DNA of 48,432 nucleotides. Origin: Coriobacteriia bacterium (GTDB lineage: Bacteria > Actinomycetota > Coriobacteriia > Anaerosomatales > PALSA-660). Position 1 is the first letter of the stretch. The number at the start of each line of letters is the position of its first letter. The position numbers and the translations under genes were made by a program. Location: assembly GCA_025361505.1 (NCBI GenBank), contig JANYKZ010000073.1, forward strand, positions 1-48,432, read 5' to 3'. Of this stretch, positions 19,227 to 34,927 are shown one piece after another. A model generated the notes under the pieces. The model did no database searches and was not told the DNA's origin. It worked only from the letters and a program-made list of their open reading frames with translations.

Positions 19227-20237
19227 ATGATGAAGGTCGCAGTGTGGGGTACGGGAATGATGGGCCAGGGGCTTCTCGGGTTCGTCCTCGATCGTCCGCA
19301 GGACATCGAACTGGTGGGCGCGATCGACATCAGTCCCGCCAAGGAGGGCATGACGGTCGGAGCCCTGCTCGGCCGCGACTGCGACGTCAAGATCACGAGC
19401 GACTCCGCCGCCGTGCTCGCGCTGAAGCCCGACGTCGTGTGCGTCCTCACCGCCAGTAACCTGCACGAGATCACCGGCCCGGTCACGGCCGCCATCGAGG
19501 CCGACTGCGATGTCATCGGCATCGCCGAGACGCTCTCGTACCCGTGGGCGAGCGACCCCGAGTGGGCCGCGCGCATCGATACGCTCGCTCGCGAGCACGG
19601 CGTCAGCGTCCTCGGGACCGGCATCAACCCCGGCTTCGTACTCGACGCGCTGCCGATCATGCTGAGCTCGGTCGGCCTGCGCATCGACCGCATCGAGGCC
19701 TCGCGCATCAACGACCTCTCGCCGTTCGGACCCACGGTCATGCAGAGCCAGGGTGTGGGCACCACGGTCGAGCAGTTCGAGGCCGGGATCGCAGACGGGT
19801 CGATCGTCGGCCACATCGGCTTCCACGAGTCCATCGGGCTCATCGGCTACGCGCTGGGATGGGAGATCGACGAGATCGTCGAGACCCGCGAGCCGATCGT
19901 CAGCACCGTCGAGCGCTCCACTCCTCACGTCCACGTGGCTCCCGGCAACGTCGCCGGCTGCCGGCACGTCGCGCGCGCCTACAGCAAGGGCGAGCTGAAG
20001 ATCGAGCTCGTGCACCCGCAGCAGATCCATCCGCACCTCGAGGGGATCGACACGGGCGACTTCATCCACATCGTCGGCGAGCCCGACATCCACCTGGCCA
20101 ACACCCCGGAGATCCCCGGCGGCAAGGGGACCTACGCCAGCATCGGGAACTACCTCCCGCTCATCGGCTCGGCGCGGCCAGGCATCGTGACCGTGGTCGA
20201 CATGCCGCTGCCGCGCTTCTGGTCACCCACGGTCTAG
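19227..20237 (+). CDS. ord: 2,4-Diaminopentanoate dehydrogenase
   Basis: A 336-residue dehydrogenase with an N-terminal Rossmann fold (VAVWGTGMMGQG) related to dihydrodipicolinate reductase N-domains. In the oxidative ornithine pathway Ord removes the C4 amino group of (2R,4S)-2,4-diaminopentanoate with NAD(P)+, giving 2-amino-4-ketopentanoate and ammonia. The internal stretches GTGINPGFVLDALPI, GFHESIGLIGYALGW and the ending ATPARPGIV/VDMPLPR-like SARPGIVTVVDMPLPRFW agree with my memory of clostridial Ord. It begins MMKVAVWG behind a strong AAGGAGG. It is the first gene of the operon; ortA begins 11 bases after its stop. Confidence 0.92.
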   Translation: MMKVAVWGTGMMGQGLLGFVLDRPQDIELVGAIDISPAKEGMTVGALLGRDCDVKITSDSAAVLALKPDVVCVLTASNLHEITGPVTAAIEADCDVIGIAETLSYPWASDPEWAARIDTLAREHGVSVLGTGINPGFVLDALPIMLSSVGLRIDRIEASRINDLSPFGPTVMQSQGVGTTVEQFEAGIADGSIVGHIGFHESIGLIGYALGWEIDEIVETREPIVSTVERSTPHVHVAPGNVAGCRHVARAYSKGELKIELVHPQQIHPHLEGIDTGDFIHIVGEPDIHLANTPEIPGGKGTYASIGNYLPLIGSARPGIVTVVDMPLPRFWSPTV

Positions 20238-20248
20238 GGAGGGTCGCC

Positions 20249-20572
20249 ATGGAAGACACGACACGCTGCGCCGCGGGGGACTGGGTCGAGGTCGAGCGCG
20301 TCCTGCTCGAGCCGGCAGACCGCGCCGTCAACCTGCCCGAGGACACCGCGGCCCAGCCGCTGCGCATGTGGGTGAAGGGCTTCGCCCGCACCGCCGCCAC
20401 CGTCGGTGACGAGCTGACGGTCGAGACGATGACCGGCCGTGAGGTGACCGGCACCCTCTTCGAGGTCAACCCGGGCTACTTCCACACGTTCGGCAAGCCG
20501 ACCCCGGAGCTCACGGCGGTAGGACCGGACCTGCGCGCCCGCGTCGCCGCCTACCGCAAGGCGGGTGGCTGA
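20249..20572 (+). CDS. ortA: 2-Amino-4-ketopentanoate thiolase, alpha subunit
   Basis: A 107-residue protein whose size and position match OrtA, the small subunit of AKP thiolase. With OrtB it cleaves 2-amino-4-ketopentanoate with CoA to alanine and acetyl-CoA. The sequence starts DWVEVERVLLEPADRAVNLPEDT and contains LRMWVKGF and GYFHTFGKPTPEL, family-typical beta-rich segments. AGGGAGGG precedes ATG 20249. It lies between ord and ortB with minimal spacing. Confidence 0.9.
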   Translation: MEDTTRCAAGDWVEVERVLLEPADRAVNLPEDTAAQPLRMWVKGFARTAATVGDELTVETMTGREVTGTLFEVNPGYFHTFGKPTPELTAVGPDLRARVAAYRKAGG

Positions 20573-20573
20573 C

Positions 20574-21986
20574 ATGGCCGGCAGGACCGAGGCGATCCTG
20601 GCCCGCAAGGGCGAGATCATGAAGCGCGCGCTGGGCATGGACTACGCACACTTCGAGCGCAGCCCGATCGCGTTCGACTACGAGGGGATGATGGCCGCTC
20701 ACGGCTACTCCCTCGAGGACATCATCCGCATCCAGCTGGCCGCGGGGGTGGGGAAGACGCCGCTCCTGGAGCTGCGCAACCTCACCGACCTGATCCGTTC
20801 CTACGCCGAGCCGGGCCACGGCGCGCGCCTGTTCGTGAAGGACGAGGCAGCCAACATGGCCGGCTCGTTCAAGGACCGTCGGGCGAGCATCTCCATCCAC
20901 GCGGCGAAGGAGAAGGGCTACGCGGGAGTGATCGCGGCCACCTCCGGCAACTACGGAGCAGCGGTATCGAGCCAGGCTGCGCGCGCGTCGCTGGACTGCA
21001 TCATCGTGCAGGAGGCGTTCGACTCCCGGCACGTCGGTCAGCCCGAGATCATCGAGAAGTCGCGCATCTGCGAGGCGTTCGGCGCCGAGGTCGTGCAGCT
21101 GACGGTCGGTCCGGAGCTCTTCTCGCACATGCTCGAGCTGCTCGACGAGACCGGCTACCTCGCGGCCTCGCTGTACTCGGCCTTCGGCATCTCCGGCATC
21201 GAGTCGCTCGGCTGGGAGCTCGCCGAGGAGATGACCGCGGCCACCGGCGCGCCGCCGACCCACGTGGTCGTCACCCACGCCGGCGGCGGCAACACCACGG
21301 GCACGGCCCGCGGGCTGCGTCGCGCAGGCGCGCTCTCGACGCAGATCGTCAGCGCGAGCGTCGACCTCTCCGGCCTGCACATGGCCAGCGACACCGACTT
21401 CAACCGCAAGAGCTTCACGACCGGCCACACGGGATTCGGCGTGCCGTTCGCCACGTGGCCGGACCGCGCGGACGTGCCGCGCAACGCCGCGCGGTCCCTG
21501 CGCTACATGGACCGCTACCTCACCGTCACCCAGGGCGAGGTCTTCTACGTCACCGAGGCGATGGCCAAGCTCGAGGGCCTGGAGCGCGGGCCGTCGGGCA
21601 ACACCGCGATGGCCGCGGCGATGTCACTTGCGCGCGACCTGCCGCGCGACGCGACCGTCGTCGTCCAGGAGACCGAGTACACGGGAGCGGGCAAGCACCA
21701 CTGGGCCCAGCTCAACTTCGCCCGCGCCAACGGCGTGGAGGTCCGCGCCGGCGACCCGACCGAGAGCGTCCCCGGTGCGAGCATCGTCATCCCCGAGCGT
21801 CCTGAGCAGATCCGCGCGAAGGACTTCGACATGGGCAAGATGCGACGCAGCTACGTTCGCAACGCCCTCGCCCACGCGGGGGAGGGCTACACGCCCACGA
21901 GCGAGGACATCGAGTTCCTCGCGGCCGACACGCACAGCGACGCCGAGAGCGTCGAAGCGATCATCGCATCACTCAAGGAGGCCTGA
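20574..21986 (+). CDS. ortB: 2-Amino-4-ketopentanoate thiolase, beta subunit (PLP)
   Basis: A 470-residue fold-type II PLP enzyme in the threonine synthase/tryptophan synthase beta superfamily. The PLP lysine is Lys100 in NMAGSFKDRRA, and the phosphate-binding Gly-rich loop is HAGGGNTTGTARG near residue 240. OrtB carries out the thiolytic C-C cleavage together with OrtA. ATG 20574 begins one base after the ortA stop; an in-frame GTG at 20565, overlapping ortA, is an alternative. Length agrees with the clostridial protein (about 473). Confidence 0.92.
   Translation: MAGRTEAILARKGEIMKRALGMDYAHFERSPIAFDYEGMMAAHGYSLEDIIRIQLAAGVGKTPLLELRNLTDLIRSYAEPGHGARLFVKDEAANMAGSFKDRRASISIHAAKEKGYAGVIAATSGNYGAAVSSQAARASLDCIIVQEAFDSRHVGQPEIIEKSRICEAFGAEVVQLTVGPELFSHMLELLDETGYLAASLYSAFGISGIESLGWELAEEMTAATGAPPTHVVVTHAGGGNTTGTARGLRRAGALSTQIVSASVDLSGLHMASDTDFNRKSFTTGHTGFGVPFATWPDRADVPRNAARSLRYMDRYLTVTQGEVFYVTEAMAKLEGLERGPSGNTAMAAAMSLARDLPRDATVVVQETEYTGAGKHHWAQLNFARANGVEVRAGDPTESVPGASIVIPERPEQIRAKDFDMGKMRRSYVRNALAHAGEGYTPTSEDIEFLAADTHSDAESVEAIIASLKEA
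21975..21981 (+). promoter_or_regulatory. Strong Shine-Dalgarno site fixing the TTG start of oraS
   Basis: AAGGAGG lies inside the last codons of ortB, nine bases before TTG 21991. There is no ATG or GTG nearby that would give the OraS N-terminus, so this site decides the rare TTG start and couples oraS to ortB translation. Confidence 0.8.
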
Positions 21987-21990
21987 TCCT

Positions 21991-22359
21991 TTGGCACGCG
22001 AAGACACCTTCCGGCAGGCGCGAGAGCACCTGGCGGGGCTGACCGACGAGCAGCTCCAGGCACGGTTCTGGGAACTCGCGCAGCAGGTCGTCGACCCGCT
22101 CGTCGAGCTCGCGCGCACGAACACCTCGCCGTCCATCGAGCGCAGCGTCCTCATGCGCATGGGCGTCGACTCGCTCACGTGCATGGCCGTCGTCTCCGGA
22201 TGCGAGAAGCGCGGGCTGCTCGGGCACGGGGCCGGCAACGTCGTGCTGCACTGCTCCGAGGTGTGGGGCTGCAGCGTGACCGAGGCCGCCGCGAGGCTCG
22301 CGCTCACGGGCGGCACCGGCTGGGAGACCGTCGAGTCCAAATGGGGAGGCGCGCTGTGA
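21991..22359 (+). CDS. oraS: D-ornithine 4,5-aminomutase, small subunit
   Basis: A 122-residue protein matching OraS, the small subunit of the adenosylcobalamin- and PLP-dependent mutase that moves the C5 amino group of D-ornithine to C4. Typical stretches are FRQAREHLAGLTDEQLQARFWELAQQVVDPLVELARTNTSPSIERSVLMRMG and VVSGCEKRGLLGHGAGNVV. It starts with TTG 21991, four bases after the ortB stop, behind AAGGAGG. Its TGA overlaps the GTG start of oraE (GTGA), implying coupled translation and a fixed subunit ratio. Confidence 0.92.
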   Translation: MAREDTFRQAREHLAGLTDEQLQARFWELAQQVVDPLVELARTNTSPSIERSVLMRMGVDSLTCMAVVSGCEKRGLLGHGAGNVVLHCSEVWGCSVTEAAARLALTGGTGWETVESKWGGAL

Positions 22360-23984
22360 GCGACGACACGATGCAGCCGCTGCGTCCCAACGAGAAGCTC
22401 GACGTCGTCAAGCTGCTCGAGGGCCTGGAGCACTATCGCCCCCGGCGCAGCGGGTGGCACTGGCGCGAGCCCGTCGCCGACCAGCACCTCTTCGAGTTCG
22501 ACTACACGCAGACCTCCAAGGGGCTGAAGAACAGCGTCCCGCTCCCGGCCGCGCACTACTTCGACAACATCGACCCGCAGCCGGACTGCGTCGTCACCAC
22601 CGAGATCGCCTCCGGACGCGTCGAGGACGACATCCGCCGCATGCGCATGGCGGCGTGGCACGGCGCCGACCACATGATGGTCATCCGCACCGCGGGCCAG
22701 AGTCACATCGACGGACTGATCGAGGGCACGCCCGAGGGCACCGGCGGGATCGCCGTGACGCGCAAGCAGGTGCGCCTCACGCGCAAGGCGCTCGACCTGA
22801 TCGAGGACGAGGTCGGACGCGAGATCAACTTCCACAGCTACGTGAGCGGCGTCGCCGGTCCCGAGATGGCGGTCATGTTCGCCGAGGAGGGCGTCAACGG
22901 CGCGCACCAGGACCCGCAGTACAACGTGCTGTACCGCAACATCAACATGTACCGCAGCTTCGTCGACGCGGCGGTCGCCAAGCACGTGATGGCCTCCGTG
23001 CGCATGGTCCAGATCGACGGCGCGCACAACGCGAACGCCACCGCCGTCAAGGCGTGGAAGGTCATGCCCGAGCTGCTCGTGCAGCACGCGATCAACTGCG
23101 CGTTCTCGGTGGCGGTGGGCATGCCCAAGGAGGACATCGCTCTCTCGACCGTGCCGCCGGACGCCGCCCCGGCGCCCTGCATGCGCATGGACCTTCCGTA
23201 TGCCGTCGCGCTGCGCGACCTGTTCGGCGAGTACAAGATGCGCGCGCAGCAGAACACGCGCTACATGGAGAGCGACGGCCGTGACGCGACCGTCTCGCAC
23301 GTGATGAACCTCGTGATCTCGCGATTGACCAGCGCGGACATCCAGTCCACGATCACGCCCGACGAGGGACGCAACGTGCCGTGGCACTACAACAACGTGT
23401 ACGCGGTCGACACCGCCAAGCAGTCGCTCGTGGGCATGGACGGGCTGCGCGACATGGTGAGGGTCGACCGCGAGAACCCCGAGCTCAAGGCTCGCGTGCG
23501 CGAGATCAAGGAGCGCGCGGTCCTCTTCCTCGAGGCGATGGTGAGGGACGGCGGCTACTTCGCTTCCGTGGAGGACGCCTACTTCGTCGACTCCGGCGAG
23601 TACCCCGAGACCAATGACGACGGCATCGTGCGTCAGTCGCAGGGTGGCGTCGCCGCGGGCACGATCGTGGAGCGCGCCGACGACTACCTCGCCCCGGTGT
23701 GCCATCACTTCGGGGTCAACCACCTGCCCGAGGGCACCGGGCGCGCCTGCGACCCGATCGGCGGCTGTACGCTGTGCGACCGCGACAAGGTGCCGTATAC
23801 GGATGAGCTCGACCCCGAGGACAACGCGAACGTGCGTCTGGCCGCCACCGCAGAGCTGCGCGAGAAGGGCCTCATCACGCCGGAAGTGCAGTGGGCCGGA
23901 GACGGCGTCGTCGTCGTGACCATGTTCCTGCCCGCCGGCGAGCGCGTCGCCGAGGCGGCCGCGCTGGAGCTGGCCGCGCGATGA
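22356..23984 (+). CDS. oraE: D-ornithine 4,5-aminomutase, large subunit, PLP/TIM-barrel part only
   Basis: A 542-residue protein matching the N-terminal two-thirds of clostridial OraE: ITTEIASGRFEDDIRRMRMAAWHGADHMMVIRTAGQSH, the EEGVNGAHQDPQYNVLYRNINM block, IDGAHNANATA and IQSTITPDEGRNVPWH all agree with what I recall of that protein. This part builds the TIM barrel that binds substrate and the PLP phosphate. It ends with MFLPAGERVAEAAALELAAR and a stop, exactly where the fused protein continues into its cobalamin-binding domain; that domain is the next gene. An extra CxxC-like cluster (DPIGGCTLCDRDK near residue 470) is present. GTG 22356 overlaps the oraS stop. Confidence 0.92.
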   Translation: MSDDTMQPLRPNEKLDVVKLLEGLEHYRPRRSGWHWREPVADQHLFEFDYTQTSKGLKNSVPLPAAHYFDNIDPQPDCVVTTEIASGRVEDDIRRMRMAAWHGADHMMVIRTAGQSHIDGLIEGTPEGTGGIAVTRKQVRLTRKALDLIEDEVGREINFHSYVSGVAGPEMAVMFAEEGVNGAHQDPQYNVLYRNINMYRSFVDAAVAKHVMASVRMVQIDGAHNANATAVKAWKVMPELLVQHAINCAFSVAVGMPKEDIALSTVPPDAAPAPCMRMDLPYAVALRDLFGEYKMRAQQNTRYMESDGRDATVSHVMNLVISRLTSADIQSTITPDEGRNVPWHYNNVYAVDTAKQSLVGMDGLRDMVRVDRENPELKARVREIKERAVLFLEAMVRDGGYFASVEDAYFVDSGEYPETNDDGIVRQSQGGVAAGTIVERADDYLAPVCHHFGVNHLPEGTGRACDPIGGCTLCDRDKVPYTDELDPEDNANVRLAATAELREKGLITPEVQWAGDGVVVVTMFLPAGERVAEAAALELAAR

Positions 23985-24568
23985 ACCTCACCGAGTGCGA
24001 GGTCATCCACAAGCAGGTGATGCACCCGGCCGAGGGCACGCTGATCGAGCTCAAGGGCGTCCTGGGCGTGACGATCGACCCCGCCACGCTCGTCATCCCG
24101 GAGAAGCCGGAGTCCCTCTCCGACGAGGAGATCCGCGCGTTCGTGGCGGAGCGAGGGCTGCGCTGCGTCGCTGCCACAGTCGGCATGGACGAGCACTCCG
24201 TGGGGATGTACGAGATCATCGACATCAAGCATGGCGGTCTCGAGAAGTGGGGCTTCCACTGCGAGCACCTGGGCACATCGGTGCCGGTCGAGAAGCTGCT
24301 GGACGCGGCCATCGAGCACGGCGCGCACGTGGTGCTCCTCTCGACGATCATCAGCCACGGCGACATGCACCGCCGCAACATGGAGAAGCTGGCCGACCTG
24401 GCCGAGGAGAAGGGCGTCCGCGACAAGTTGCTGCTCATCGCCGGAGGCACCCAGGTCACCGACGAGCTGGCCCGGTCGTGGGGCATGGACGCCGGGTTCG
24501 GGCGCCGCACCCACGGCATCGACGTGGCGTCCTTCATCGTGAAGTGCATGCGCGAGCGGGGCATGTGA
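23981..24568 (+). CDS. Separate cobalamin-binding subunit of D-ornithine aminomutase (C-terminal OraE domain)
   Basis: A 195-residue protein equivalent to the C-terminal Rossmann domain of OraE. It holds the base-off B12 motif D70-E-H72-S-V-G75, with His72 as the expected cobalt ligand. Lys83 in DIKHGG lies eleven residues later, matching the His618/Lys629 pair of the clostridial enzyme, in which the lysine forms the resting-state imine with PLP. Further B12-fold marks are HLGTSVPVEKLLDAAIE, LLSTIISHGDMH and IAGGTQVTDE. The first residues (MNLTECEVIHKQVMHPAEGT) match the sequence just after the linker in fused OraE. ATG 23981 overlaps the oraE stop (ATGA), so the two halves are probably made in equal amounts and assemble as one enzyme, as KamD/KamE do in lysine 5,6-aminomutase. 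Confidence 0.92.
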   Translation: MNLTECEVIHKQVMHPAEGTLIELKGVLGVTIDPATLVIPEKPESLSDEEIRAFVAERGLRCVAATVGMDEHSVGMYEIIDIKHGGLEKWGFHCEHLGTSVPVEKLLDAAIEHGAHVVLLSTIISHGDMHRRNMEKLADLAEEKGVRDKLLLIAGGTQVTDELARSWGMDAGFGRRTHGIDVASFIVKCMRERGM

Positions 24569-24575
24569 GAAAGCG

Positions 24576-25922
24576 ATGATCACTTCGCCCCGCACCATCG
24601 ACGCGCTCGTCGCCGAGGTCGGTTCCACCACGACCACGGTGACGGCGTTCGACGGGCTGGGCGGCTGGCCCGATACCGAGCCCCGACTGCTCGGGCAGGG
24701 TGTCGCGCCGACCTCGGTCGCGGTCGGTGACGTGACCATCGGTGTCGACTCCGCCCGCGCGGACCTCGAGTCCCGCCTCGGGCCGTTGGCGCCCGGCGTG
24801 ACACTGGCCACGAGCTCGGCGGCGGGCGGGTTGCGCATGACGGTCCACGGGCTCACGCAGCGCATGACCGCGATGGCTGCGCAGGAGGCCGCTCTCGGCG
24901 CCGGCGCCGTGGTCGAGTTCCAGACCTCCGGGCACCTGCGCGACCACGACCTTGACCGGATCGCTGCGGCGCGCCCGAGCCTCGTGCTTCTGGCGGGCGG
25001 CGTCGAGGGCGGCGACATCGAGACCGTGCTGTTCAACGCGCGCCGCCTTACAGAGCTGGAGATCCGTCCCATCGTCGTCTACGGCGGCAACTCCCAGGGC
25101 GCTGACGAGGCGCGCGCCATCCTGGAGGGCGCGGGCTTCCGTGTCCGCGTGACGGCCAACGTCTATCCCGGCATCGACGAACTCGACATCGTCCCCGCGC
25201 GAGCTGTCATCCATGACGCGTTCGAGGAGCACATCACGCATGCGCCGGGGATGGAGCGCATCGCCGGGTTCGTGACCGGCCACGTCCTGCCGACACCGGG
25301 CGCGGTGCTCATCGCGGCCGAGCTGCTCGCCGCCACGCTGGGCGATCTCGTCGTCCTCGACGTGGGCGGCGCCACGACCGACGTGCACTCGATCACGGAC
25401 GGCAGCCGCCAGTACGACGGCCTGCGCACCGACCCGGAGCCGCACGCCAAGCGCACGGTCGAAGGCGATCTCGGTACCTTCGTGAGCGCGCAGCACGTCG
25501 TCGCGCTGCTCCCGGAGGGCGAGCGTCCGGCCTCACTTCCGCCCGCCATCCCGCGAACGGACGGCGAGATCGCAGCGGCCCTGCTTCTGGCGCGCACGGC
25601 AGCGATCACGGCCATGCACCGGCACGCGGGTCGGCTCTCCGCCATCTACACGCCTACGGGGCGTCAGACGGTGGCGCGCGGGCGCGACCTCACCGCGTGC
25701 CGGATCGTGATCGGCACGGGCGGCGCCCTGACGCGCCTTCCCGGCGGCATCGGCGTGCTGGAGCAGGTGCGCGGCCGCCAGGAGGGCGACAGGCTGCTGC
25801 CCTCAAGCGACGCCGTGTGCGCGCTCGATCGTGACTATCTCCTCGCGTGCTGCGGCGCGCTGGCCGCGTACTTCGAAGCCGACGCCGTGGTGGCGCTCAT
25901 GCGCCGCAGCACGGGACTCTAG
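24576..25922 (+). CDS. GlmL/MutL-type accessory ATPase, likely aminomutase reactivase
   Basis: A 448-residue protein of the MutL/GlmL family of actin-like ATPases. The phosphate-binding loop is VAEVGSTTTTVTAFD at the N-terminus, and VVLDVGGATTDVHS near residue 265 is the second nucleotide-binding motif. Members lie next to B12-dependent mutases (glutamate mutase, ornithine aminomutase) and are thought to replace damaged cobalamin in the inactivated enzyme. The gene starts 7 bases after the B12 subunit gene with GAGAAAG upstream. No separate small partner is seen. Confidence 0.88.
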   Translation: MITSPRTIDALVAEVGSTTTTVTAFDGLGGWPDTEPRLLGQGVAPTSVAVGDVTIGVDSARADLESRLGPLAPGVTLATSSAAGGLRMTVHGLTQRMTAMAAQEAALGAGAVVEFQTSGHLRDHDLDRIAAARPSLVLLAGGVEGGDIETVLFNARRLTELEIRPIVVYGGNSQGADEARAILEGAGFRVRVTANVYPGIDELDIVPARAVIHDAFEEHITHAPGMERIAGFVTGHVLPTPGAVLIAAELLAATLGDLVVLDVGGATTDVHSITDGSRQYDGLRTDPEPHAKRTVEGDLGTFVSAQHVVALLPEGERPASLPPAIPRTDGEIAAALLLARTAAITAMHRHAGRLSAIYTPTGRQTVARGRDLTACRIVIGTGGALTRLPGGIGVLEQVRGRQEGDRLLPSSDAVCALDRDYLLACCGALAAYFEADAVVALMRRSTGL

Positions 25923-25937
25923 GGAAGGCGTATCCGT

Positions 25938-27014
25938 ATGCAGCTCGCGCAGGCGACCGTCACGGTCGATCTCTCCAAGATCGAGGACAACGCACGCATC
26001 CTTGTCGAAGCACTTCCGGGCGTCGCCATCGTCGGTGTCACGAAGGTCACCTGCGGCACGCCGGAGATCGCGCTCGCGATGCTCGCCGGCGGCGTCACCG
26101 GGTTGGGGGAGTCGCGGCTCGAGAACGCGGCGCGCCTGCGCGACGCGGGCGTGACCGCCCCGGTCTGGCTCGTGCGCGCGCCCTCACCTGCGACAGCGGA
26201 CGAGGCCGTTCGCGTCTCGGACGTATCCATGGTCAGCGAGATCGCCATTGTCGAGGCGCTCGATGCCGCTGCGGGAAGGGCGGGGCGCCGCTACGGCATC
26301 GTCGCGATTGTCGACATCGGCGACCTGCGCGAGGGCATGATGCCGGGCGAGCTGCCGGGGTTCCTCGACCACGTCGCGACGTGCGAGCACATCGACATCC
26401 TGGGCATCGGCGCCAGCCTGACCTGCTATGGCGCGATCGTCCCCGACGAGTCGAACCTGGCGTTGCTCGCCGCGCTCGCCGCCGAGGCCGAGGTCCAGCT
26501 GGGACGCACGCTGCTGGTCTCCGGGGGAAGCTCCACCTCGATCGCGCCTGTCATGGCGGGGCGCGGTCCGGCCACGATCGACAACCTGCGTCTCGGTGAG
26601 GCGATCGTCCTCGGTGTCGACCCGGCTACCCGGGAGCCGATCCCTGGTCTGGACCTGCATCGCGATGCGGTGACCGTCTCGGCCCCGGTGATCGAATGCA
26701 AGGTCAAGCCGTCGATGCCGATCGGCACGTGCGCCCAGGACGCGTTCGGCAACGTCCCGTCCTTCGAGGACCGCGGGGATTGCCGTCGCGCGATCTGCGC
26801 GATCGGCCGCCAGGACGTCGTGCCGGAACAGCTCGTTCCCGTCGACCCTCGGATCATCGTGCTCGGCGCATCGAGCGACCATCTCGTGCTCGACGTCGAG
26901 GACCTACCCGTCCCGCCGGCGATCGGGGAGCCCATCGCATTCGTGCCCGGCTACTCCGCGACGCTTGCGCTCTTCACGTCACTGTACGTGGCCAAGGAGT
27001 TCATCAACGGCTGA
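25938..27014 (+). CDS. orr: Ornithine racemase (PLP)
   Basis: A 358-residue protein of the alanine-racemase N-domain (fold III) family. The PLP lysine is Lys36 in IVGVTKVTCG. GLGESRLENAARLRDAGV, IVDIGDLREGMMP and LGIGASLTCYGAI follow in the order seen in Orr. The enzyme makes D-ornithine, the substrate of the aminomutase, from L-ornithine. It is the last gene of the pathway operon, starting 15 bases after the GlmL-like gene. Context makes ornithine more likely than alanine or proline as substrate. Confidence 0.9.
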   Translation: MQLAQATVTVDLSKIEDNARILVEALPGVAIVGVTKVTCGTPEIALAMLAGGVTGLGESRLENAARLRDAGVTAPVWLVRAPSPATADEAVRVSDVSMVSEIAIVEALDAAAGRAGRRYGIVAIVDIGDLREGMMPGELPGFLDHVATCEHIDILGIGASLTCYGAIVPDESNLALLAALAAEAEVQLGRTLLVSGGSSTSIAPVMAGRGPATIDNLRLGEAIVLGVDPATREPIPGLDLHRDAVTVSAPVIECKVKPSMPIGTCAQDAFGNVPSFEDRGDCRRAICAIGRQDVVPEQLVPVDPRIIVLGASSDHLVLDVEDLPVPPAIGEPIAFVPGYSATLALFTSLYVAKEFING

Positions 27015-27086
27015 GGCCGCGGGTGCTACCCTGATTGGCGTCCTGCGCGTCGCTTGCGGCGTGCGACGTCCCACGAGGGGGAGCGC

Positions 27087-28235
27087 GTGCCGATCGAGCC
27101 GAGGAAGCCCGTCCGGGTGCTGCAGGTCGTGCGTCCAGCGGCCGGCGGCATGAAGGGCCACGTGCTGCAGCTCGCGGTCGGCCTGCGCGCCCACGGGTTC
27201 GAGTCGGAGATCGCCTGTCCGGGCGATTCCGAGCTCGTCCACGATGCGCTCGAGGCGAACGTCGTCGTCCATCCCGTTCCGATCGTCGGACCGCTCGACG
27301 TGTTGCGCGACCCGTCGGCGATCGTCTCGCTCGCCGAGGTCATACGGGAGCGCCGCCCCGCACTGGTGCACGCCCACGGGTCGAAGGCGGGGTTGATCGC
27401 GCGGATGGCGGTACTGCTGGCGGGCCGTCCCCCCACCGTCGTGACGGTCCACAACCAGGTCCTCTACGGCGGGATCTCGCCGCTCATGCGATGGGTCTAC
27501 GTCGTGATGGAGCGTCGGCTCGCCCGGCGCACTGCGCGGATCATCACGGTGTCCGAGGCACTCCGCTCCGAGATGCTGGAGACGTTCGGGCTTGCGCCGT
27601 CGCTCGTGACGACCGTCTACAACGGCCTCGACCTCATGCCGTTCCTTTCCGGTTCCGATCGCGCCAAGGCGCGCGACCGCTACGGCATCCCGTCCGGTGC
27701 CTTGGCGATCGGGCTGGCGGCGCGCTTCGCGCCGCAGAAGGCGCTCGACGTGCTCGTCGAGGCCGCCGTGCCCGTCCTCGAGCTCCACCCGGAGGCCCAT
27801 CTGGTGCTCGCCGGCTCGGGGCCGCTGCTCGAGTTCGTCCAAACCAGGGCGCGGGCCTCGTCGGTACGCGATCGCATCCTCTTCCCGGGGCTCGAGACCG
27901 ACATGCCCGGGTTCCTGTCGGCGCTCGACATCTACGCCTCCGCCGCGATTGCTGAGGGGCTCGGGCTCGGCACGATAGAGGCCATGGCCGCGGGACTCCC
28001 TGTCGTCAGCACGACCGCCGGCGGAACTCCCGAAGTCGTCGAGGACGGCGTGACCGGCCTGCTCGTCCCGCCGGGCAAGGCCGCTCCGCTGACCGAGGGC
28101 CTCCTGCGGCTCGCGAAGGACCCTGCGCTGCGCAGGAGGATGGGGGAGGCCGGGCGCGCTCGCGCGCTCGAGCGCTTCACCGAGGAGCGCATGCTCGCCC
28201 GCACGGCCGAGGTGTATCGGGAGGTGCTCGCGTGA
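27087..28235 (+). CDS. GT4-family glycosyltransferase
   Basis: A 382-residue two-Rossmann (GT-B) enzyme. The N-terminal domain begins RVLQVVRPAAGGMKGHVLQLAVGL, the acceptor-side glycine-rich loop. The C-terminal domain has IGLAARFAPQKALDVLVEA, then EGLGLGTIEAMAAGLPVVSTTAGGTPEVVEDGVTGLLVPP with the EX7E-like pair that binds the nucleotide-sugar. Acceptor and sugar cannot be read. GTG 27087, behind GAGGGGG, is chosen over an upstream ATG. The stop overlaps the next gene (GTGA), linking it to the radical-SAM pair rather than to ornithine metabolism, though the 72-base gap after orr leaves read-through possible. Confidence 0.88.
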   Translation: MPIEPRKPVRVLQVVRPAAGGMKGHVLQLAVGLRAHGFESEIACPGDSELVHDALEANVVVHPVPIVGPLDVLRDPSAIVSLAEVIRERRPALVHAHGSKAGLIARMAVLLAGRPPTVVTVHNQVLYGGISPLMRWVYVVMERRLARRTARIITVSEALRSEMLETFGLAPSLVTTVYNGLDLMPFLSGSDRAKARDRYGIPSGALAIGLAARFAPQKALDVLVEAAVPVLELHPEAHLVLAGSGPLLEFVQTRARASSVRDRILFPGLETDMPGFLSALDIYASAAIAEGLGLGTIEAMAAGLPVVSTTAGGTPEVVEDGVTGLLVPPGKAAPLTEGLLRLAKDPALRRRMGEAGRARALERFTEERMLARTAEVYREVLA

Positions 28236-29110
28236 TCCGCTTCGCTGACATCCCGGTCGGGTCCGGCGGTGAGACGCGCTGCTCCCGGTGTCACGGCGAA
28301 TCCGGGGAGGTGTCGTACCGTCCCGCCGCCGAGATCGCTGCCGAGATCGCGATGGTGTGCGAGCTGTGGGATGAACTCCCGGGCCCCAACGTCGCCCTGA
28401 CCGGGGCCGATCCGTTCGGACATCCCGATCTGCCCGCGCTCGTCGGCGCCGCGGTCGAGGCCGGCTGTCGCCGCCTCTGCCTCGCGACGGACGCCGTAGC
28501 GCTGCGCTCGCCGCAGAACGCGGGCGGCTCGCTCATGGCGGGGGTCCGCCACCTGCGTTGGACCATCCTCGGGGGTACCCCGGGTGTGCACGACGTTCTC
28601 GTCGGTACGCCGGGCGCCCTCGATCTCTCCGTCGAGGGGGTCCGCTCGTTCCTGTCGATCGCCTCCGAGGAGACGATCCCCGTGAGCGTGACGGCCGTCG
28701 TCCCGGTGTGCCGTCACAACGTGCACGACCTTCCCGCGGCGGCGGGGCTCGCCGTGGACGCGGGCGCGGACCGCGTGCTGCTCCGCCTCGACGACGGGGG
28801 ACTCGACCTGCCCGCTGCGCTGCCGTGGATCGTCGCCGCGTGTGACACCGGCGTCGTGAACGGCGTGTGGGTGGAGGTCGAGGGCGTCCCGTTCTGCCTC
28901 CTGCCCGGCTACGACCTGCACCTGGCCGACGCCGTGCGCCAGCGCCCCGGCGCCAAGCCGCCGGTGTGCTCGGAGTGCGCGCTCGACGCCGTCTGCGGCG
29001 GCGCTCCGGCCGGCGCGAGCGCCGACCAGCTCGCCACACTCGCGCCGCCGGTGTCCGCCGAGCGCCTGTCCGTCTCGGTTCTGCGCGCCCGCGGTATGGG
29101 GGAACGCTGA
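28232..29110 (+). CDS. Radical-SAM-like protein with degenerate cluster motif and SPASM-like tail
   Basis: A 292-residue protein with the layout of a SPASM/Twitch radical-SAM enzyme. RCSRCHGESGE at residues 16-26 aligns with the cluster loop, but the first cysteine of CxxxCxxC is replaced by Gly13, leaving Cys17 and Cys20. The SAM-binding GGEP motif reads LTGADP. The C-terminal half keeps CSECALDAVCGG, a Twitch-like C-x2-C-x5-C cluster site. Loss of one of the three cluster ligands would normally abolish SAM cleavage, so it may be a non-catalytic partner. It begins inside the glycosyltransferase stop and ends inside the start of the B12 radical-SAM gene, so all three are translationally coupled. 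Confidence 0.75.
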   Translation: MIRFADIPVGSGGETRCSRCHGESGEVSYRPAAEIAAEIAMVCELWDELPGPNVALTGADPFGHPDLPALVGAAVEAGCRRLCLATDAVALRSPQNAGGSLMAGVRHLRWTILGGTPGVHDVLVGTPGALDLSVEGVRSFLSIASEETIPVSVTAVVPVCRHNVHDLPAAAGLAVDAGADRVLLRLDDGGLDLPAALPWIVAACDTGVVNGVWVEVEGVPFCLLPGYDLHLADAVRQRPGAKPPVCSECALDAVCGGAPAGASADQLATLAPPVSAERLSVSVLRARGMGER

Positions 29111-30378
29111 TGGCGACCCCTCCGCTCCGGTGCGCCATGCTGGCGCTCAACTCTCCGGGCTACCGGTCGCTGGCGCTCGGCTACCTGCGCGCGTACGCGC
29201 AGGCGGATCGTCGGCTCGCGGGGCGGGTCGCCTTCGAGACGCTGGACCTCGACACCGACGTCGACCCCTGGTGGGTCGCGTGGCGCGTGCTCGGCCTCGA
29301 GCCCGACGTGCTGGCCATCTCGGTCACCTGCTGGAATGCCCGGAGCGTCTACGAGGTCTGCCGGATCGTGGCTGCGGTGCGTCCGGAGTGCGCCATCGTT
29401 CTCGGCGGACCGGAGGTCGGTCCCGCAGCCGAGGAGGTCCTGGCCGCGCATCCCGAAGTGGGCGTCGTCGTCCGCGGCGAAGGCGAACTCACCTTCGCGG
29501 ACCTGCTCGCCGAGCTGGCGGGCGGCGGGAAGGCGTGGAGGGTCGACGGGATCACGCTGCGCCGCAGCGGCTCGATCGTCGCCACTCCTGATCGCGCCCT
29601 CGTGGCGAACCTCGACGACCTGCCGTCTCCCTACCTTACCGGCGTGCTCATCCCGGTCGACGGCGGGGCGTATCTCGAGACCTTCCGCGGATGCCCGCAC
29701 CGTTGCGCCTACTGCTTCGAGGGCAAGGGCTACGGCCGGATCCGCTCCTTCTCGGACGAGCGCATCGCGGCCGAGATCGAGTTCGTGGCGACCGCCCCGG
29801 GCGTGCGCACCTTCTCGTTCATCGACCCCGTCTTCAACCTCACCGGCGAGCGCCTGCGCATGCTGGCCTCGCTCATGTCTCCCTACGTCGCGAACGGCAT
29901 GCGACTTCACACCATCGAGGTCGATATCGAACGGATCGACGACGAGGCGGCCGAGCTTCTGCGCTCCGCGGGCGTGGCCAGTGTCGAGACGGGGCCTCAG
30001 ACGATCGGCGCGGACGCGCTCGAGGCGTGCCACCGGCCCTTCCGTGCGGACCGGTTCGCTGCCGGGATCGACGCGCTCCGCCGAGCGGGCATCTCCTGCG
30101 AGTGCGACCTGATCGTCGGGTTGCCGGGGGACGACGTGTACGACTTCCTGGCGGGACTGCGGTTCGTCCTGCGCCTCGACCCGGGGAAGATACAGTCGTC
30201 GACGCTGCACGTGCTGCCCGGCACCGAGCTGTGGGAACGCGCCGCCGAGCTGGGGCTCGAGTTCGACCGCGAGCCGTCGCACGAGGTCATCGCGACCCCG
30301 GGCGTCGGCTTCCGCGACCTGCGCCGCGCCGAGGTGTTCGCCTCGTCGCTGCAGTCCGCGTACCGCGCACGGGTCTAG
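29110..30378 (+). CDS. B12-binding-domain radical-SAM protein
   Basis: A 422-residue class B-type architecture. The N-terminal cobalamin-binding Rossmann domain spans about residues 1-140 (LEPDVLAISVTCWNARSVY, ECAIVLGGPEVGPAAEEVL, VVVRGEGELTFADLL). An intact radical-SAM domain follows, with FRGCPHRCAYCFEG giving Cys195, Cys199 and Cys202, and a DLIVGLPGDD strand. Related proteins methylate unactivated carbons or do other radical chemistry; the substrate is unknown. It lacks a DxHxxG base motif, as is common in this class. ATG 29110 overlaps the preceding TGA (TGATG). The partner upstream has lost a cluster cysteine, so a two-protein complex is plausible. Confidence 0.9.
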   Translation: MATPPLRCAMLALNSPGYRSLALGYLRAYAQADRRLAGRVAFETLDLDTDVDPWWVAWRVLGLEPDVLAISVTCWNARSVYEVCRIVAAVRPECAIVLGGPEVGPAAEEVLAAHPEVGVVVRGEGELTFADLLAELAGGGKAWRVDGITLRRSGSIVATPDRALVANLDDLPSPYLTGVLIPVDGGAYLETFRGCPHRCAYCFEGKGYGRIRSFSDERIAAEIEFVATAPGVRTFSFIDPVFNLTGERLRMLASLMSPYVANGMRLHTIEVDIERIDDEAAELLRSAGVASVETGPQTIGADALEACHRPFRADRFAAGIDALRRAGISCECDLIVGLPGDDVYDFLAGLRFVLRLDPGKIQSSTLHVLPGTELWERAAELGLEFDREPSHEVIATPGVGFRDLRRAEVFASSLQSAYRARV

Positions 30379-30402: not shown

Positions 30403-31566
30403 ATGCCCGATCACGTGTCCGCCCGCGCGAAGGCCGTCCGTCCGTTCGTGGTCATGGACGTCGTCGCCCGCGCCAAGGAGCTCGAGGCGCAGGGGCGCGA
30501 CGTCGTCCGGATGGACGTCGGCGACCCCGACCTCCCGACCCCCGACGTGATCACGCGCGCCGCCGAGGCGGCCATGGAGTCCGGCGACACGGGCTACACA
30601 CAGTCGATGGGACTGCCGGACCTGCGCGACGCGGTCTCGGCGCGCTTCGCGTCGAAGTACGGTGTCACCGTCAGCCGGGACGACATCGTCGTCACCCAGG
30701 GCACCTCGCCCGCGATGCTGCTGCTGTTCGGTTCGCTCCTCGACCCGGGCGACGAGGTCATCCTCTCCGACCCGTGCTATCCCGCCTATCCCAACTACGT
30801 GGCGTTCCTCGGAGGCGTGCCCGTTCGCGTGCGCGCCCGGGCGTCCGACGGGTTCCGCATGCGGATCGAGGAGATAGAGGCGGCCATCACGCCCCGGACG
30901 CGCTGCATCATGATCAACTCGCCGTCGAACCCGATGGGCACCGTCCTGCCTCCCGAGGACCTGCGTGCCATCGCGGCGCTCGCCGAGAAGCACGGCCTCT
31001 ACGTGGCCAGCGACGAGATCTACCACGGGCTCGACTTCACCGGGACCGACCACACCATCCTCGAGTACACCGACCGCGCCTTCGTGCTCAACGGCTTCTC
31101 GAAGCTCTACGCGATGACGGGATGGCGGCTGGGCTACCTCGTCGCGCCCCGTGACTTCGTCCGGCCCGCCGAGGCGATCCAGCAGAACTTCTTCCTGTGC
31201 GCGAACCACTTCGTGCAGGTGGCCGGCACGGCCGCGCTCCTGAAGGCGGATCCCGACGTCGCCCGCATGCGGGCGATCTACGACGAGCGGCGGCGCTACC
31301 TCGTGCCCGCGCTGCGCGGCATCGGGCTGACGGTCGAGGTCGAGCCGACCGCCGCGTTCTACGTGTTCGCCGACGCGAAGGAGTGGGGGAGCGACTCACT
31401 CGCGCTCACCTACCGTCTCATCGACGAGGCGGGAGTGGCGGCCGCGCCGGGCGTCGACTTCGGGCCTGAAGGTGAGGGCTTCCTGCGCTTCAGCTACGTC
31501 ACCGGCATCGAGCGCCTTCGCGAAGGCGTCTCGCGCCTGCAGTCCTGGTCGGCCGCGCGCCTCTAG
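30403..31566 (+). CDS. Class I/II PLP aminotransferase
   Basis: A 387-residue fold-type I aminotransferase of the AspC-like Igamma group. The PLP lysine is Lys234 in GFSKLYAMTGWRLGY, the standard SKxxxxxGxRxGY block. NSPSNPMGTVL and VASDEIYHGL contain the Asn and Asp that bind PLP, and RFSYVTGIERLREGV at the end includes the substrate-carboxylate Arg. Substrate is likely an L-amino acid such as aspartate or alanine, but cannot be fixed. It follows the radical-SAM gene by 24 bases. Alanine is a product of the ornithine route nearby, which makes alanine transamination an attractive guess. Confidence 0.9.
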   Translation: MPDHVSARAKAVRPFVVMDVVARAKELEAQGRDVVRMDVGDPDLPTPDVITRAAEAAMESGDTGYTQSMGLPDLRDAVSARFASKYGVTVSRDDIVVTQGTSPAMLLLFGSLLDPGDEVILSDPCYPAYPNYVAFLGGVPVRVRARASDGFRMRIEEIEAAITPRTRCIMINSPSNPMGTVLPPEDLRAIAALAEKHGLYVASDEIYHGLDFTGTDHTILEYTDRAFVLNGFSKLYAMTGWRLGYLVAPRDFVRPAEAIQQNFFLCANHFVQVAGTAALLKADPDVARMRAIYDERRRYLVPALRGIGLTVEVEPTAAFYVFADAKEWGSDSLALTYRLIDEAGVAAAPGVDFGPEGEGFLRFSYVTGIERLREGVSRLQSWSAARL

Positions 31567-31664
31567 GGAACCTTCGCCGGCGGGGTAGGGAAGCGGGCGG
31601 GTCCGTGTCAGACCCGAGTGCGACACTCGTCGAGGATCGACCGGGACCACCGAAAGAGGCGACC

Positions 31665-32841
31665 ATGTCCGTCTTCTCACACTCGCGCATCGAGTCGTAC
31701 GAGACGTGCCCGAAGAAGTACGAGTTCGCGTACCTCATCAAACCGCCGAAGGGCCCTGACGGGGTCGAGGCCTTCATGGGCAGCCGCGCGCACGACGCGC
31801 TCGAATGGCTCTACGGCGAGGTCAAGGCGTGCCGCGTCCCCGGCGAGGAGGCCCTCGCGGAGCGCTTCCGCGTCGTGTGGGACGCGGAGTGGAGGGACGA
31901 CGTGCGGATCGTCCGCGCCGGCCGTACGGCCGACGACTACCGCGCCATCGGTGAGAAGGCGCTTCGCGACTACTACCGCCGCTACCACCCGTTCGACCAA
32001 GCGGTGACCGTCGGGCTCGAGCTCCGCGTTACGCTGCCGCTCGACGATGAGCACGAGATCGTCGGCTTCATCGATCGACTCGATCGCGTATCGGACGGAG
32101 TCTGGGAGATCCACGACTACAAGACCGCGGCCGCTTTGATGACGCAGGACAAGGCGGACGCAAACCGCCAGCTGGCGCTCTACGAACTCGCGGTCCGCAG
32201 GATGTACTCCGACGTGCGAGAGGTCACGCTCGTGTGGCACTACCTGGCGCTCGACTGCGAGGTCCGTTCCACCCGGAGCCCCGAGCAGCTCGCCGATCTG
32301 CGCGCCCAGGTCCTCGACAGCGTCAAGCACATCGAGGCGCAGCGGGCGTTCGTCGCGCGCACTTCGAACCTGTGCGACTGGTGCGAGTACCGCCCGCTGT
32401 GTCCCGCGTGGAAGCACCTGTACCGGACCGAGGCGCTGTCCGACGGATCGCGCGCCGAGGAGCCCGGCGTCGTGCTCGTCGACGAGTACCTGCGCGTGTC
32501 GGACGAGGCGGCGGCGCTCAAGGCCCGGTTGGACGAGCTCAAGGGCGCCATCGCGGTCCGCGCACAGTCCGACGGCGTCGACCGCCTCTTCGGCACCCAG
32601 GGCTCGCTCAAGGTGTTCCGCTACGCGTCGGTCGGGCTTCCGGACGCGAAGGACCCGCGCAGGGCCGAGCTCGAGGCGGAGCTGCGGGAGATGGGACTGT
32701 GGGAGCGATTCACCCAGCTCGCCTCGTACCCGCTCTCACGCCATCGGCGACGGGGAGCTGACTCCCGACGAGCTGGAGCGCCTCGAGCCCTACATCGTCC
32801 GAACCGAGGGCGTGAAGCTCTACCCCGCGCGCAACCGCTAG
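31665..32841 (+). pseudogene. RecB/Cas4-like Fe-S PD-(D/E)XK nuclease, with a frameshift near its 3' end
   Basis: The frame from ATG 31665 (behind AAGAGG) encodes an AddB/Cas4-like nuclease. The catalytic residues are Asp137 (GFIDRLDR) and Asp151-Tyr-Lys153 (IHDYKT). A likely [4Fe-4S] site uses Cys15 (YETCPKKYEF) plus Cys237, Cys240 and Cys246 (CDWCEYRPLC). A coiled helical segment follows. At about 32727-32741 the frame breaks: protein-like sequence continues one frame over as AIGDGELTPDELERLEPYIV up to TAG 32839-32841. The 1177-base span is one base too long for a single frame. Catalytic and cluster residues all precede the break, so only about 34 C-terminal residues are affected; it may be a sequencing error. 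Without the shift the frame would run wrongly over the PHP gene. Confidence 0.8.
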
Positions 32842-32953
32842 TCGGACGGCGCATGGTAATCCCATGGGCCTTTCGCCCGGCGTCGGGTTCTCGGCACACC
32901 CGTTGCTCACCCTCAGGCACACGCAACCGGCGAGCCGCCACGAGGGAGACCAC

Positions 32954-33670
32954 GTGCCCGAGGTCTGGAGCAAGGCCGATCTGCATATCCACTCGACCCA
33001 CAGCGACGGGCTGGCCACGCCCGAGGAGATCGTCACCTACGCGGCCACCCGTACGGACCTCAAGGTCATCGCGGTCACCGATCACAACACTATCGAGGGA
33101 GGGCTGCGGGCGCTCGAGGCCGCATCCCGCTATCCCGGTCTGGAGGTCGTCGTTGGCGCCGAGATCACCTCGAAGTGGGGCCACATCCTCGGGCTCTACC
33201 TCACCGAGGACGTCCCTGCCGGGCTGAGCGCGGGCGACACGATCGCAGCGATCAACGAGCAGGGTGGCATCGCGATCATCGCGCACCCCTTCGCCAATCG
33301 GGCGTTCGGCCCCTTCGGCCTTAAGAGCCTCGGGAAGAAGATCGACGAGGTCGTGTTCCAGGCAATGGAGGTCTACAACTCGTCGCCGTATCTCATCTAT
33401 GCCAACCGGCTCGCGTCCAAGGCGTTCGCGGCAGGGCAGGGGATTGCGGCGACCGGCGGCAGCGACGCTCACGTCCTGCAGGCGGTGGGCCGCGGCTACA
33501 CGCTGTTCCGCGGGACCTCGGCCGGCGACCTCCGTCTGTCGATCGAGGAGCTGGAGACGCGCGCCCACGCCCAGCGCGGCGGGATGTCGATCGCCTGGCG
33601 CTACATGTGGCGTTACCCGGCCATCCGCAGGCAGCAGGCCCTCAACCGCGAGCGGTGCCGAGCGCACTGA
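32954..33670 (+). CDS. PHP-domain metal-dependent phosphoesterase
   Basis: A 238-residue protein of the PHP family. Metal-ligand motifs appear in order: ADLHIHSTHSDG at residues 9-19, AVTDHNTIEGG, VVVGAEITSKWGHILGLYL, AIIAHPFANR, and the final GGSDAHVLQAVGRGYTLF. These coordinate two or three metal ions for phosphoester hydrolysis, as in TrpH-like nucleases or histidinol phosphatases. The substrate is open. GTG 32954 with GAGGGAG upstream is preferred over an ATG 30 codons earlier, because the upstream residues are non-homologous. It ends three bases from the convergent chelatase-like gene. Confidence 0.88.
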   Translation: MPEVWSKADLHIHSTHSDGLATPEEIVTYAATRTDLKVIAVTDHNTIEGGLRALEAASRYPGLEVVVGAEITSKWGHILGLYLTEDVPAGLSAGDTIAAINEQGGIAIIAHPFANRAFGPFGLKSLGKKIDEVVFQAMEVYNSSPYLIYANRLASKAFAAGQGIAATGGSDAHVLQAVGRGYTLFRGTSAGDLRLSIEELETRAHAQRGGMSIAWRYMWRYPAIRRQQALNRERCRAH

Positions 33671-33673
33671 CCC

Positions 33674-34927
33674 TCAGCGCGATGAGGCCCCGGCTTCGCT
33701 GTCGAGGCGGTGGGCGGCTTCGACGACGGCCTTTCGCAGCGCGGAGACGGCCACAGGATCCGCCCCGAGGGGCGGGACCACGGCGACGCGCACGTTCGAC
33801 TCGACGAGCGCGCGCTCGACGGCGAGCGGCAGGTCCACCGCCGTGGTGAGGTCGGGATAGAGCAGGTCCACCGGCAGGAGCGCGATGTGCTGAGCGCCGA
33901 GCGCCGCCAGGTGGCGCACCGCTTCGGGCACGTCCGGCTCCTCCCATTCCAGCCACGCTTGGCGGACCCGCTCGACCGGCAGCCCCGCTTCGATCAGCTC
34001 GGCGCGGATGCGCTGCGCCAGGTACGTCGTCTGCTCCATTGCGTCGGGGAACATGCGGTCGAACTGCCACGGGTTGCCCCGCGAGATGAGCACGACGCCG
34101 TCGGTGATCCCGTCGTCCCCGAACGCTTCGAGCGCGCGCAGCGCCGCCCTCACCGCAACGGGATGGGACGCCCACAGGGGTTCGGTGTACTCGACGGTAA
34201 GGTCCGACCCCGAAGGATCGAGTGCGTGCACCTCAGCTGCCGCCGCGTCGAAAGGTTGGGTCTGCGCGACGGTGAGCCGGGCGACGACGATGCGGCGGCC
34301 TGTGCGCGACGCCGCGCGGGCGACCGCCTCGGCGGCGGAAGGGCCCCCCTCACAGAAGCCGACCTCGACCGGACCGGCGTAGCCGTCCTCCGTCAGCCGC
34401 GTTGACAGCGCGGCGGCGATCTCACGCACGGCGCCACGGGCGGGACTCGTGCCCGCCGCCCGGTAGCGCGCCCGCTCCGAGCCGTAGACGAAGGGGCGAG
34501 CGGCGAACGGGGGAAGGGGCACCTCGCCGCGCTCGTAGGACTCGAGCTCGCGTGTGACGTCCCGCGCTCGGTAGTCGTCCATCGGAGCGTCGGCCAGCAG
34601 GACGACGCCGATCTCCGAGCCCGGGGCGACCGTGCCCAGCGTGACGCGCTCGGAACGCGGTCGCGTCAGGGAGGGGAGCAGCGCCGACGCGAGGCCGTAG
34701 CCTCCGGCGAGCGCGCCAAGCGAGATGAACACCGAGGCGATCAGGGTGTCGGGGCGTCCGGTCAGCTTGAACACGACAGCCACCGCCAGCGCGAGCAGCA
34801 CCGCGGCGACCGTCCCCGCGATGCCCACCACCGCGAGGAAGCGCCGGCGCACGACGAATGCGGCGCACGTCGTCGCTCCGGCCATGGTGCCGGCGAGCAG
34901 TGCCAAGGCCCAGGGGAGGAACCTCAT
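33674..34927 (-). CDS. Membrane-anchored ferrochelatase-like protein
   Basis: A 417-residue protein. The first 90 residues hold three hydrophobic segments (LPWALALLAGTMAGATTCAAF, FLAVVGIAGTVAAVLLALAVAVVF, LIASVFISLGALAGGYGLASALL). From about residue 100 the pattern is that of the ferrochelatase (HemH) fold: IGVVLLADAPMD at the start, DGYAGPVEVGFCEGGPSAAEAV, a middle strand VVLISRGNPWQF, and QHIALLPVDLLYPDLTTAVDLP near the end. In HemH the matching middle strand carries the catalytic His (SAHGLP-like); here it reads SRGNP, so iron insertion by the normal mechanism is doubtful. It may be a structural or transport relative or a chelatase with other ligands. Confidence 0.7.
   Translation of the reverse strand: MRFLPWALALLAGTMAGATTCAAFVVRRRFLAVVGIAGTVAAVLLALAVAVVFKLTGRPDTLIASVFISLGALAGGYGLASALLPSLTRPRSERVTLGTVAPGSEIGVVLLADAPMDDYRARDVTRELESYERGEVPLPPFAARPFVYGSERARYRAAGTSPARGAVREIAAALSTRLTEDGYAGPVEVGFCEGGPSAAEAVARAASRTGRRIVVARLTVAQTQPFDAAAAEVHALDPSGSDLTVEYTEPLWASHPVAVRAALRALEAFGDDGITDGVVLISRGNPWQFDRMFPDAMEQTTYLAQRIRAELIEAGLPVERVRQAWLEWEEPDVPEAVRHLAALGAQHIALLPVDLLYPDLTTAVDLPLAVERALVESNVRVAVVPPLGADPVAVSALRKAVVEAAHRLDSEAGASSR

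Follow-up and report, generated by a model that had tools for sequence, protein, structure and literature searches.

Why should a protein that lacks a defining cysteine of the radical S-adenosylmethionine (SAM) enzymes be encoded, through overlapping genes, together with an intact cobalamin (B12)-dependent member of the same superfamily? The question is raised by a 48,432-nucleotide contig (JANYKZ010000073.1, positions 1 to 48,432, referred to here as the window) from the assembly GCA_025361505.1 of a Coriobacteriia bacterium (Anaerosomatales, PALSA-660), in which a degenerate radical-SAM-fold protein (protein 1) stands directly before a B12 radical-SAM protein (protein 2; Table 1). The cluster loop of protein 1 reads G13-ETR-C17-SR-C20, placing Gly13 at the first cysteine (Cys1) of the CxxxCxxC motif, and L56-T-G-A-D-P61 stands at the position of the GGEP motif. 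The genes for the two proteins overlap by one base (TGATG), and protein 1 in turn overlaps a GT4 glycosyltransferase gene by four bases, its GTG start lying within GTGA. A first-pass annotation made from the sequence had reported these features, along with a C-x2-C-x5-C motif in protein 1 and intact cysteines in protein 2, and all are correct; absent from it was C222, a fourth auxiliary-type cysteine beside C246-x2-C249-x5-C255. Profile searches mirror the degeneracy, with the Pfam Radical_SAM model scoring 16 bits on protein 1 against a gathering cut-off of 29.5, compared with 51 and 39 bits for intact relatives, and with no match in protein 1 to Pfam SPASM (PF13186).

The loss of Cys1 is a property of the lineage. 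In an alignment of 51 members of the Coriobacteriia clade, mostly Anaerosomatales/OPB41 and drawn from many independent assemblies, Cys1 is present in none, and C17, C20, H64, R81, G104, G136, C160, and H162 are invariant. Glycine, the residue singled out by the annotation, occupies position 13 in just 26 of the 51 sequences; the conserved trait is the absence of cysteine. A sequencing or assembly error could be suspected because two other genes in the window look frameshifted (OraE near 23981 and a PD-(D/E)XK gene near 32760), but the absence of Cys1 from every class member refutes this explanation, to which we attach practically no probability. In comparison with the relative L072, protein 1 shows a nonsynonymous rate (dN) of 0.108 and a synonymous rate (dS) of 0.70 (dN/dS ~0.15), indicating purifying selection, and the corresponding values for protein 2 are 0.054 and 0.53. 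The auxiliary-type cysteines are distributed differently. C246, C249, and C255 are retained in seven of the 51 proteins, six of which, all from the window's family, also keep C222, while the remaining 44 lack the three cysteines and are mostly ~235 residues long, with the domain gone. Where it occurs, in the window's family and in the deep relatives described below, the Cx2Cx5C motif with its fourth cysteine lies C-terminal to the barrel.

Association with protein 2 is equally consistent. Among 100 genomes around the window's, 66 encode protein 2 at a match threshold of E <= 1e-30, and in 62 of these protein 1 lies immediately 5'; in the other four (G005, G017, G048, and G076) the protein 2 gene sits at a contig end. 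Contig ends also interrupt the loci of the good protein 1 matches without protein 2 (G009, G027, and G080); wherever a locus of the 51 class members includes the flank, protein 2 comes straight after protein 1. The two genes abut or overlap in nearly all loci, most sampled Anaerosomatales genomes carry the pair, and two genomes (G012 and G037) carry two copies of the whole pair. Named relatives with the pair are mostly metagenome-assembled Coriobacteriia/Anaerosomatales, and no plasmid-borne copies of it were found. The coupling of a degenerate protein to a B12 radical-SAM protein, as first proposed, is thus borne out as a strictly linked ancient unit in which degeneracy varies by lineage. Because the neighbouring aminotransferase and GT4 genes vary across families, gene order indicates that the two-gene pair itself is the unit. 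A further type of partner (L041, L046, and L048) is long, has three of the four auxiliary cysteines (C222 being replaced by Gly), and has no aminotransferase downstream; it belongs to the second pair copies in G037 and G012 and to the sole copy found in G036.

The history of the pair can be followed outside the class. Five deeper actinobacterial lineages also encode it, with protein 2 identities of 41-47%, and CxxxCxxC is present in the partners of four of them. These four partners, from L118 (Geothermocultor), L120, L121, and L126, have an intact CxxxCxxC, GGEP, and all four auxiliary cysteines. The fifth partner, from L130, has a deletion of the cluster loop and GDYL in place of GGEP; it retains the four auxiliary cysteines and is still paired. 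Homologues that restore the cysteine, which the annotation would have read as a sign of sequencing error, therefore occur only in distant sister lineages, where they show ancestry rather than error. In the protein 2 tree, all rows that have lost Cys1 lie together beyond a branch supported at 100/100, L118 groups with L130 as its sister (100/97), and a clade of the four intact rows that excludes L130 is rejected (approximately unbiased test, p-AU 0.02). The simplest reading of these sequences is an intact ancestor whose descendants lost the cluster motif twice independently, once at the root of the Coriobacteriia clade and once in L130, with pairing kept in both; that the intact state is ancestral rests on the superfamily rule, the available outgroup branches being very long. 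Two such losses without loss of the pairing argue that the pair does not need protein 1 to cleave SAM. The same B12 enzyme is thus accompanied by a series of an intact protein, a protein that has lost Cys1 with the auxiliary motif in place, a short form without the motif, and an independent loop deletion. Intermediates between an active radical-SAM enzyme and a non-catalytic subunit are rarely seen, and comparing these natural variants offers a direct test of what degenerate radical-SAM partners do.

What has the old active site become? The AlphaFold2 model of protein 1 has high confidence, with a predicted local distance difference test score (pLDDT) of 95.4 and a predicted template modelling score (pTM) of 0.92. 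Because the nearest solved folds in the PDB are BlsE, DesII, GDGT-MAS, SkfB, and SuiB (Foldseek E 1e-8), the model identifies protein 1 as a radical-SAM barrel, the partial TIM-barrel fold of the superfamily. Active sites of radical-SAM-type barrels lie at the C-terminal ends of the strands. In the model C17 and C20 follow beta1 (5-8), H64 follows beta2 (53-57), and C160 and H162 come immediately after beta5 (152-159), so that all of them sit at C-terminal strand ends of the predicted barrel. Neither C160 nor H162 is conserved among the intact deep relatives, where position 160 is S, C, G, or N in the four intact proteins and T in L130. The model suggests C17, C20, C160, and H162, perhaps with H64, as a candidate rewired metal or cluster site.

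Protein 2 has the domain order of class 1 cobalamin-dependent radical-SAM enzymes. An N-terminal B12-binding domain (PF02310) is followed by a radical-SAM domain (PF04055), both above their cut-offs, and every aligned homologue has C195-x3-C199-x2-C202. The protein 2 model (pLDDT 93.6) resembles CysS and TokK at a template modelling score (TMq) of 0.85, and the sequence alignment spans residues 7-433 of the 645 in CysS, the chain stopping at the counterpart of CysS residue 433. The C-terminal domain of CysS (residues 433-630) contributes one helix to the lining of the substrate channel, and the lower-axial position beneath the cobalt is taken by Trp75 (PMC12846815). Trp75 of protein 2 aligns with this residue and is at least 90% conserved; a C-terminal domain of the OxsB/TsrM/TokK/CysS type is absent. 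The best NCBIfam match, KedN5 (NF033712), scores 179.9 bits, far below its cut-off of 700, and for this reason the reaction can only be inferred; it is probably a methylation.

Together, these observations can be accommodated by a two-subunit cobalamin-dependent radical-SAM enzyme in which protein 1 is an accessory barrel that does not cleave SAM and helps to bind substrate, a proposal that we regard as having an even chance of being correct. Protein 2 would be the catalytic subunit, binding cobalamin and a SAM-cleaving [4Fe-4S] cluster, and would most likely methylate a small molecule or remodel it by other radical chemistry. The ancestor of protein 1 would have been a true radical-SAM protein that carried a single auxiliary cluster and already had protein 2 as its partner, and in the Coriobacteriia ancestor protein 1 would have lost the first cluster cysteine and ceased to cleave SAM. 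We infer a physical complex in which the barrel would complete the substrate pocket in trans, standing in for the CysS/TokK C-terminal domain, and the old protein 1 active site would have turned into the C17-x2-C20/C160-x-H162 (+ H64) site, probably binding a structural metal (Zn or an Fe-S cluster). More tentatively, and with the balance tilted somewhat against it, we hypothesize a heterodimer, a cobalamin radical-SAM enzyme, one subunit of which would be a pseudoenzyme derived from a radical-SAM enzyme on at least two occasions. In one lineage the cluster site would have been rewired to give a new Cys3(His) metal site (C17, C20, C160, and H162/H64), and the barrel would provide in trans the substrate-binding function that resides in the fused C-terminal domain of CysS/TokK-type enzymes.

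Several observations weigh against the accessory-barrel proposal. Residues resembling H64 and H162 also occur in intact BlsE, leaving only C160 as clearly linked to the lineage, and intact L120 has a cysteine at position 160 as well. The GGEP loop, which binds SAM, has for the most part kept G58, E/D60, and P61, and this is compatible with residual binding of SAM or a nucleotide. AprD4 and MgmA chains are short too (~454 and 417 residues in the PDB), so the C-terminal domain that protein 2 lacks need not be replaced in trans. Finally, in a mirror-tree test that was uninformative, the correlation between the distance matrices of the two proteins was 0.26, no better than with unrelated neighbours. 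The chief rival draws on some of the same residues: C160, at the end of beta5, would replace Cys1 as third ligand, the cysteines C17, C20, and C160 would hold a SAM-cleaving [4Fe-4S] cluster in a relocated geometry, and the pair would carry out two consecutive radical steps. Precisely these three cysteines are invariant in the class, the SAM pocket mostly retains E/D60, P61, and T86, and the partner is intact in deep relatives. L130, however, keeps the pair despite deletion of the whole cysteine loop, making SAM cleavage dispensable at least there, the second glycine of GGEP is replaced (by P, A, T, V, F, or Y at position 59), and we know of no precedent for a radical-SAM cluster ligand supplied from beta5. 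We consider a still-active protein 1 unlikely, at perhaps one chance in five.

Of the two roles that the annotation had envisaged for the degenerate protein, substrate binding is possible and is the one favoured here. The other, electron delivery, would have an auxiliary-type cluster (C222, C246, C249, and C255) pass electrons to the cluster or the cobalamin of the B12 enzyme, and it would account for why the window's family, the intact deep relatives, and L130 (where the radical-SAM loop alone is lost) all retain the four cysteines. As a general role it is unlikely, since pairing is unchanged in the 44 Coriobacteriia members without C246, C249, and C255; with the auxiliary domain gone from most members, electron transfer is improbable, more so than a still-active protein 1. 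A three-step glycoconjugate pathway of GT4, protein 1, and protein 2, suggested by the overlapping genes of the window, is less probable again, indeed very unlikely. GT4 lies 5' of the pair in all six loci of the window's family that show this flank, a tight linkage, but it is not beside the pair in the other families of the order, in families f17, f20, and f21, or in the deep relatives, and the more widely retained neighbour is a class-I aminotransferase. The proposed linkage of three genes thus holds for proteins 1 and 2 and breaks down for GT4 as an obligate third member.

Outside the window's family, where GT4 was rejected as a constant partner, the other families of the order usually have an Opp-type transporter and a divergent large gene 5' of the pair, with unrelated genes in some. 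In most loci of the order the aminotransferase gene lies 3' of the pair with a spacing of -10 to +60 bases; it was not found 3' of the pair in f17, f20, f21, or the deep relatives. A role in a heme or corrin pathway was considered, because two f20 genomes have hemACD-like genes downstream and because of a CbiX-like gene, and was rejected as inconsistent across families. The CbiX/ferrochelatase-like protein of the window (33674-34927, opposite strand) has an N-terminal hydrophobic segment, and its gene stays close to the pair throughout most of the order. A ribosomally synthesized and post-translationally modified peptide (RiPP) hypothesis was likewise rejected: upstream of the pair in the window there is no conserved small open reading frame (ORF), only shadow ORFs and apparent tRNA-region ORFs.

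Table 1. Genes and protein motifs at the protein 1/protein 2 locus (window coordinates).
Feature	Position	Strand	Remark
GT4 glycosyltransferase	27054-28235	+	ORF directly 5' of protein 1, overlapping
Protein 1, degenerate radical-SAM-fold partner, 292 aa	28232-29110	+	GTG start
Protein 1 degenerate cluster loop, codons 13-20: Gly13 ... Cys17-x2-Cys20	28268-28291	+	
Protein 1 degenerate GGEP region L56-T-G-A-D-P-F-G-H64	28397-28423	+	
Protein 1 P158-V-C160-R-H162	28703-28717	+	Immediately past strand beta5
Protein 1 C246-x2-C249-x5-C255	28967-28996	+	With C222, four-Cys auxiliary-cluster-type motif
Protein 2, class-1-type cobalamin-dependent radical-SAM protein, 422 aa	29110-30378	+	Intact CxxxCxxC
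Class-I aminotransferase	30403-31566	+	Starts 24 bases past protein 2; possible operon member

Elsewhere in the window, an ornithine-fermentation-type gene set (19227-27014) ends 40 bp 5' of the GT4 gene and comprises 2,4-diaminopentanoate dehydrogenase, a PALP enzyme, aminomutase parts, a MutL-like protein, and a racemase. Within it, the D-ornithine 4,5-aminomutase OraE (22179-24568) is broken near 23981, inside the dimerisation domain, and is one open frame in most relatives (743-796 aa in several); the split is a frameshift or an assembly error in the window's genome. A PD-(D/E)XK nuclease-like ORF (31605-33227) departs from the 392-aa form of a relative past residue 385 and runs over a PHP gene, probably through a second frameshift near 32760. 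Further upstream (7385-16165), a single protein of 2926 aa combines glucoamylase-like and GH94 phosphorylase domains and resembles a cyclic beta-glucan synthase. No Rfam RNA, riboswitches included, was found in the window. In L118 (Candidatus Geothermocultor), an RNase P RNA and a c-di-GMP-II-GAG riboswitch (8165-9986) lie near the intact-type pair.

The pair carries no assigned function, and its prevalence in Anaerosomatales, a cosmopolitan group of the subsurface, points to an uncharacterized radical reaction that depends on B12; its components can be placed among known systems. Both folds are known and 'pseudo-SAM' is a curated kind of protein; the pair, the obligate tie to a CysS-like enzyme without its C-terminal domain, and the series from intact to degenerate partners were not found in the families and papers searched, and the open-access literature yielded nothing on degenerate radical-SAM partners of cobalamin enzymes. 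The curated example of a 'pseudo-SAM' protein with the radical-SAM fold, the NCBIfam pseudo-SAM/SPASM protein TIGR04347, is a weak match (30.9 bits against a cut-off of 525) from a different lineage. In fold and sequence profile, protein 1 resembles the radical-SAM/Twitch-SPASM enzymes BlsE, DesII, GDGT-MAS, MoaA, and HxsC4, from which it differs in lacking CxxxCxxC and in its altered GGEP; against HxsC4 (NF038332; cut-off 500) it scores 39.7 bits and the intact L118 partner 107.7. A works-like analogy is offered by Dph1-Dph2, an asymmetric two-subunit non-canonical radical-SAM enzyme in which it is not clear what the cluster of the second subunit does (PMC11048331), although it differs in fold and chemistry, has clusters in both subunits, and uses no cobalamin. 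The closest likeness of protein 2 is to the CysS/TokK/KedN5-type cobalamin-dependent radical-SAM methyltransferases (PDB 9n1b and 7kdx; NF033712), with which its B12-binding and radical-SAM domains align end to end; unlike them, protein 2 ends where their C-terminal domain begins and has an obligate partner gene.

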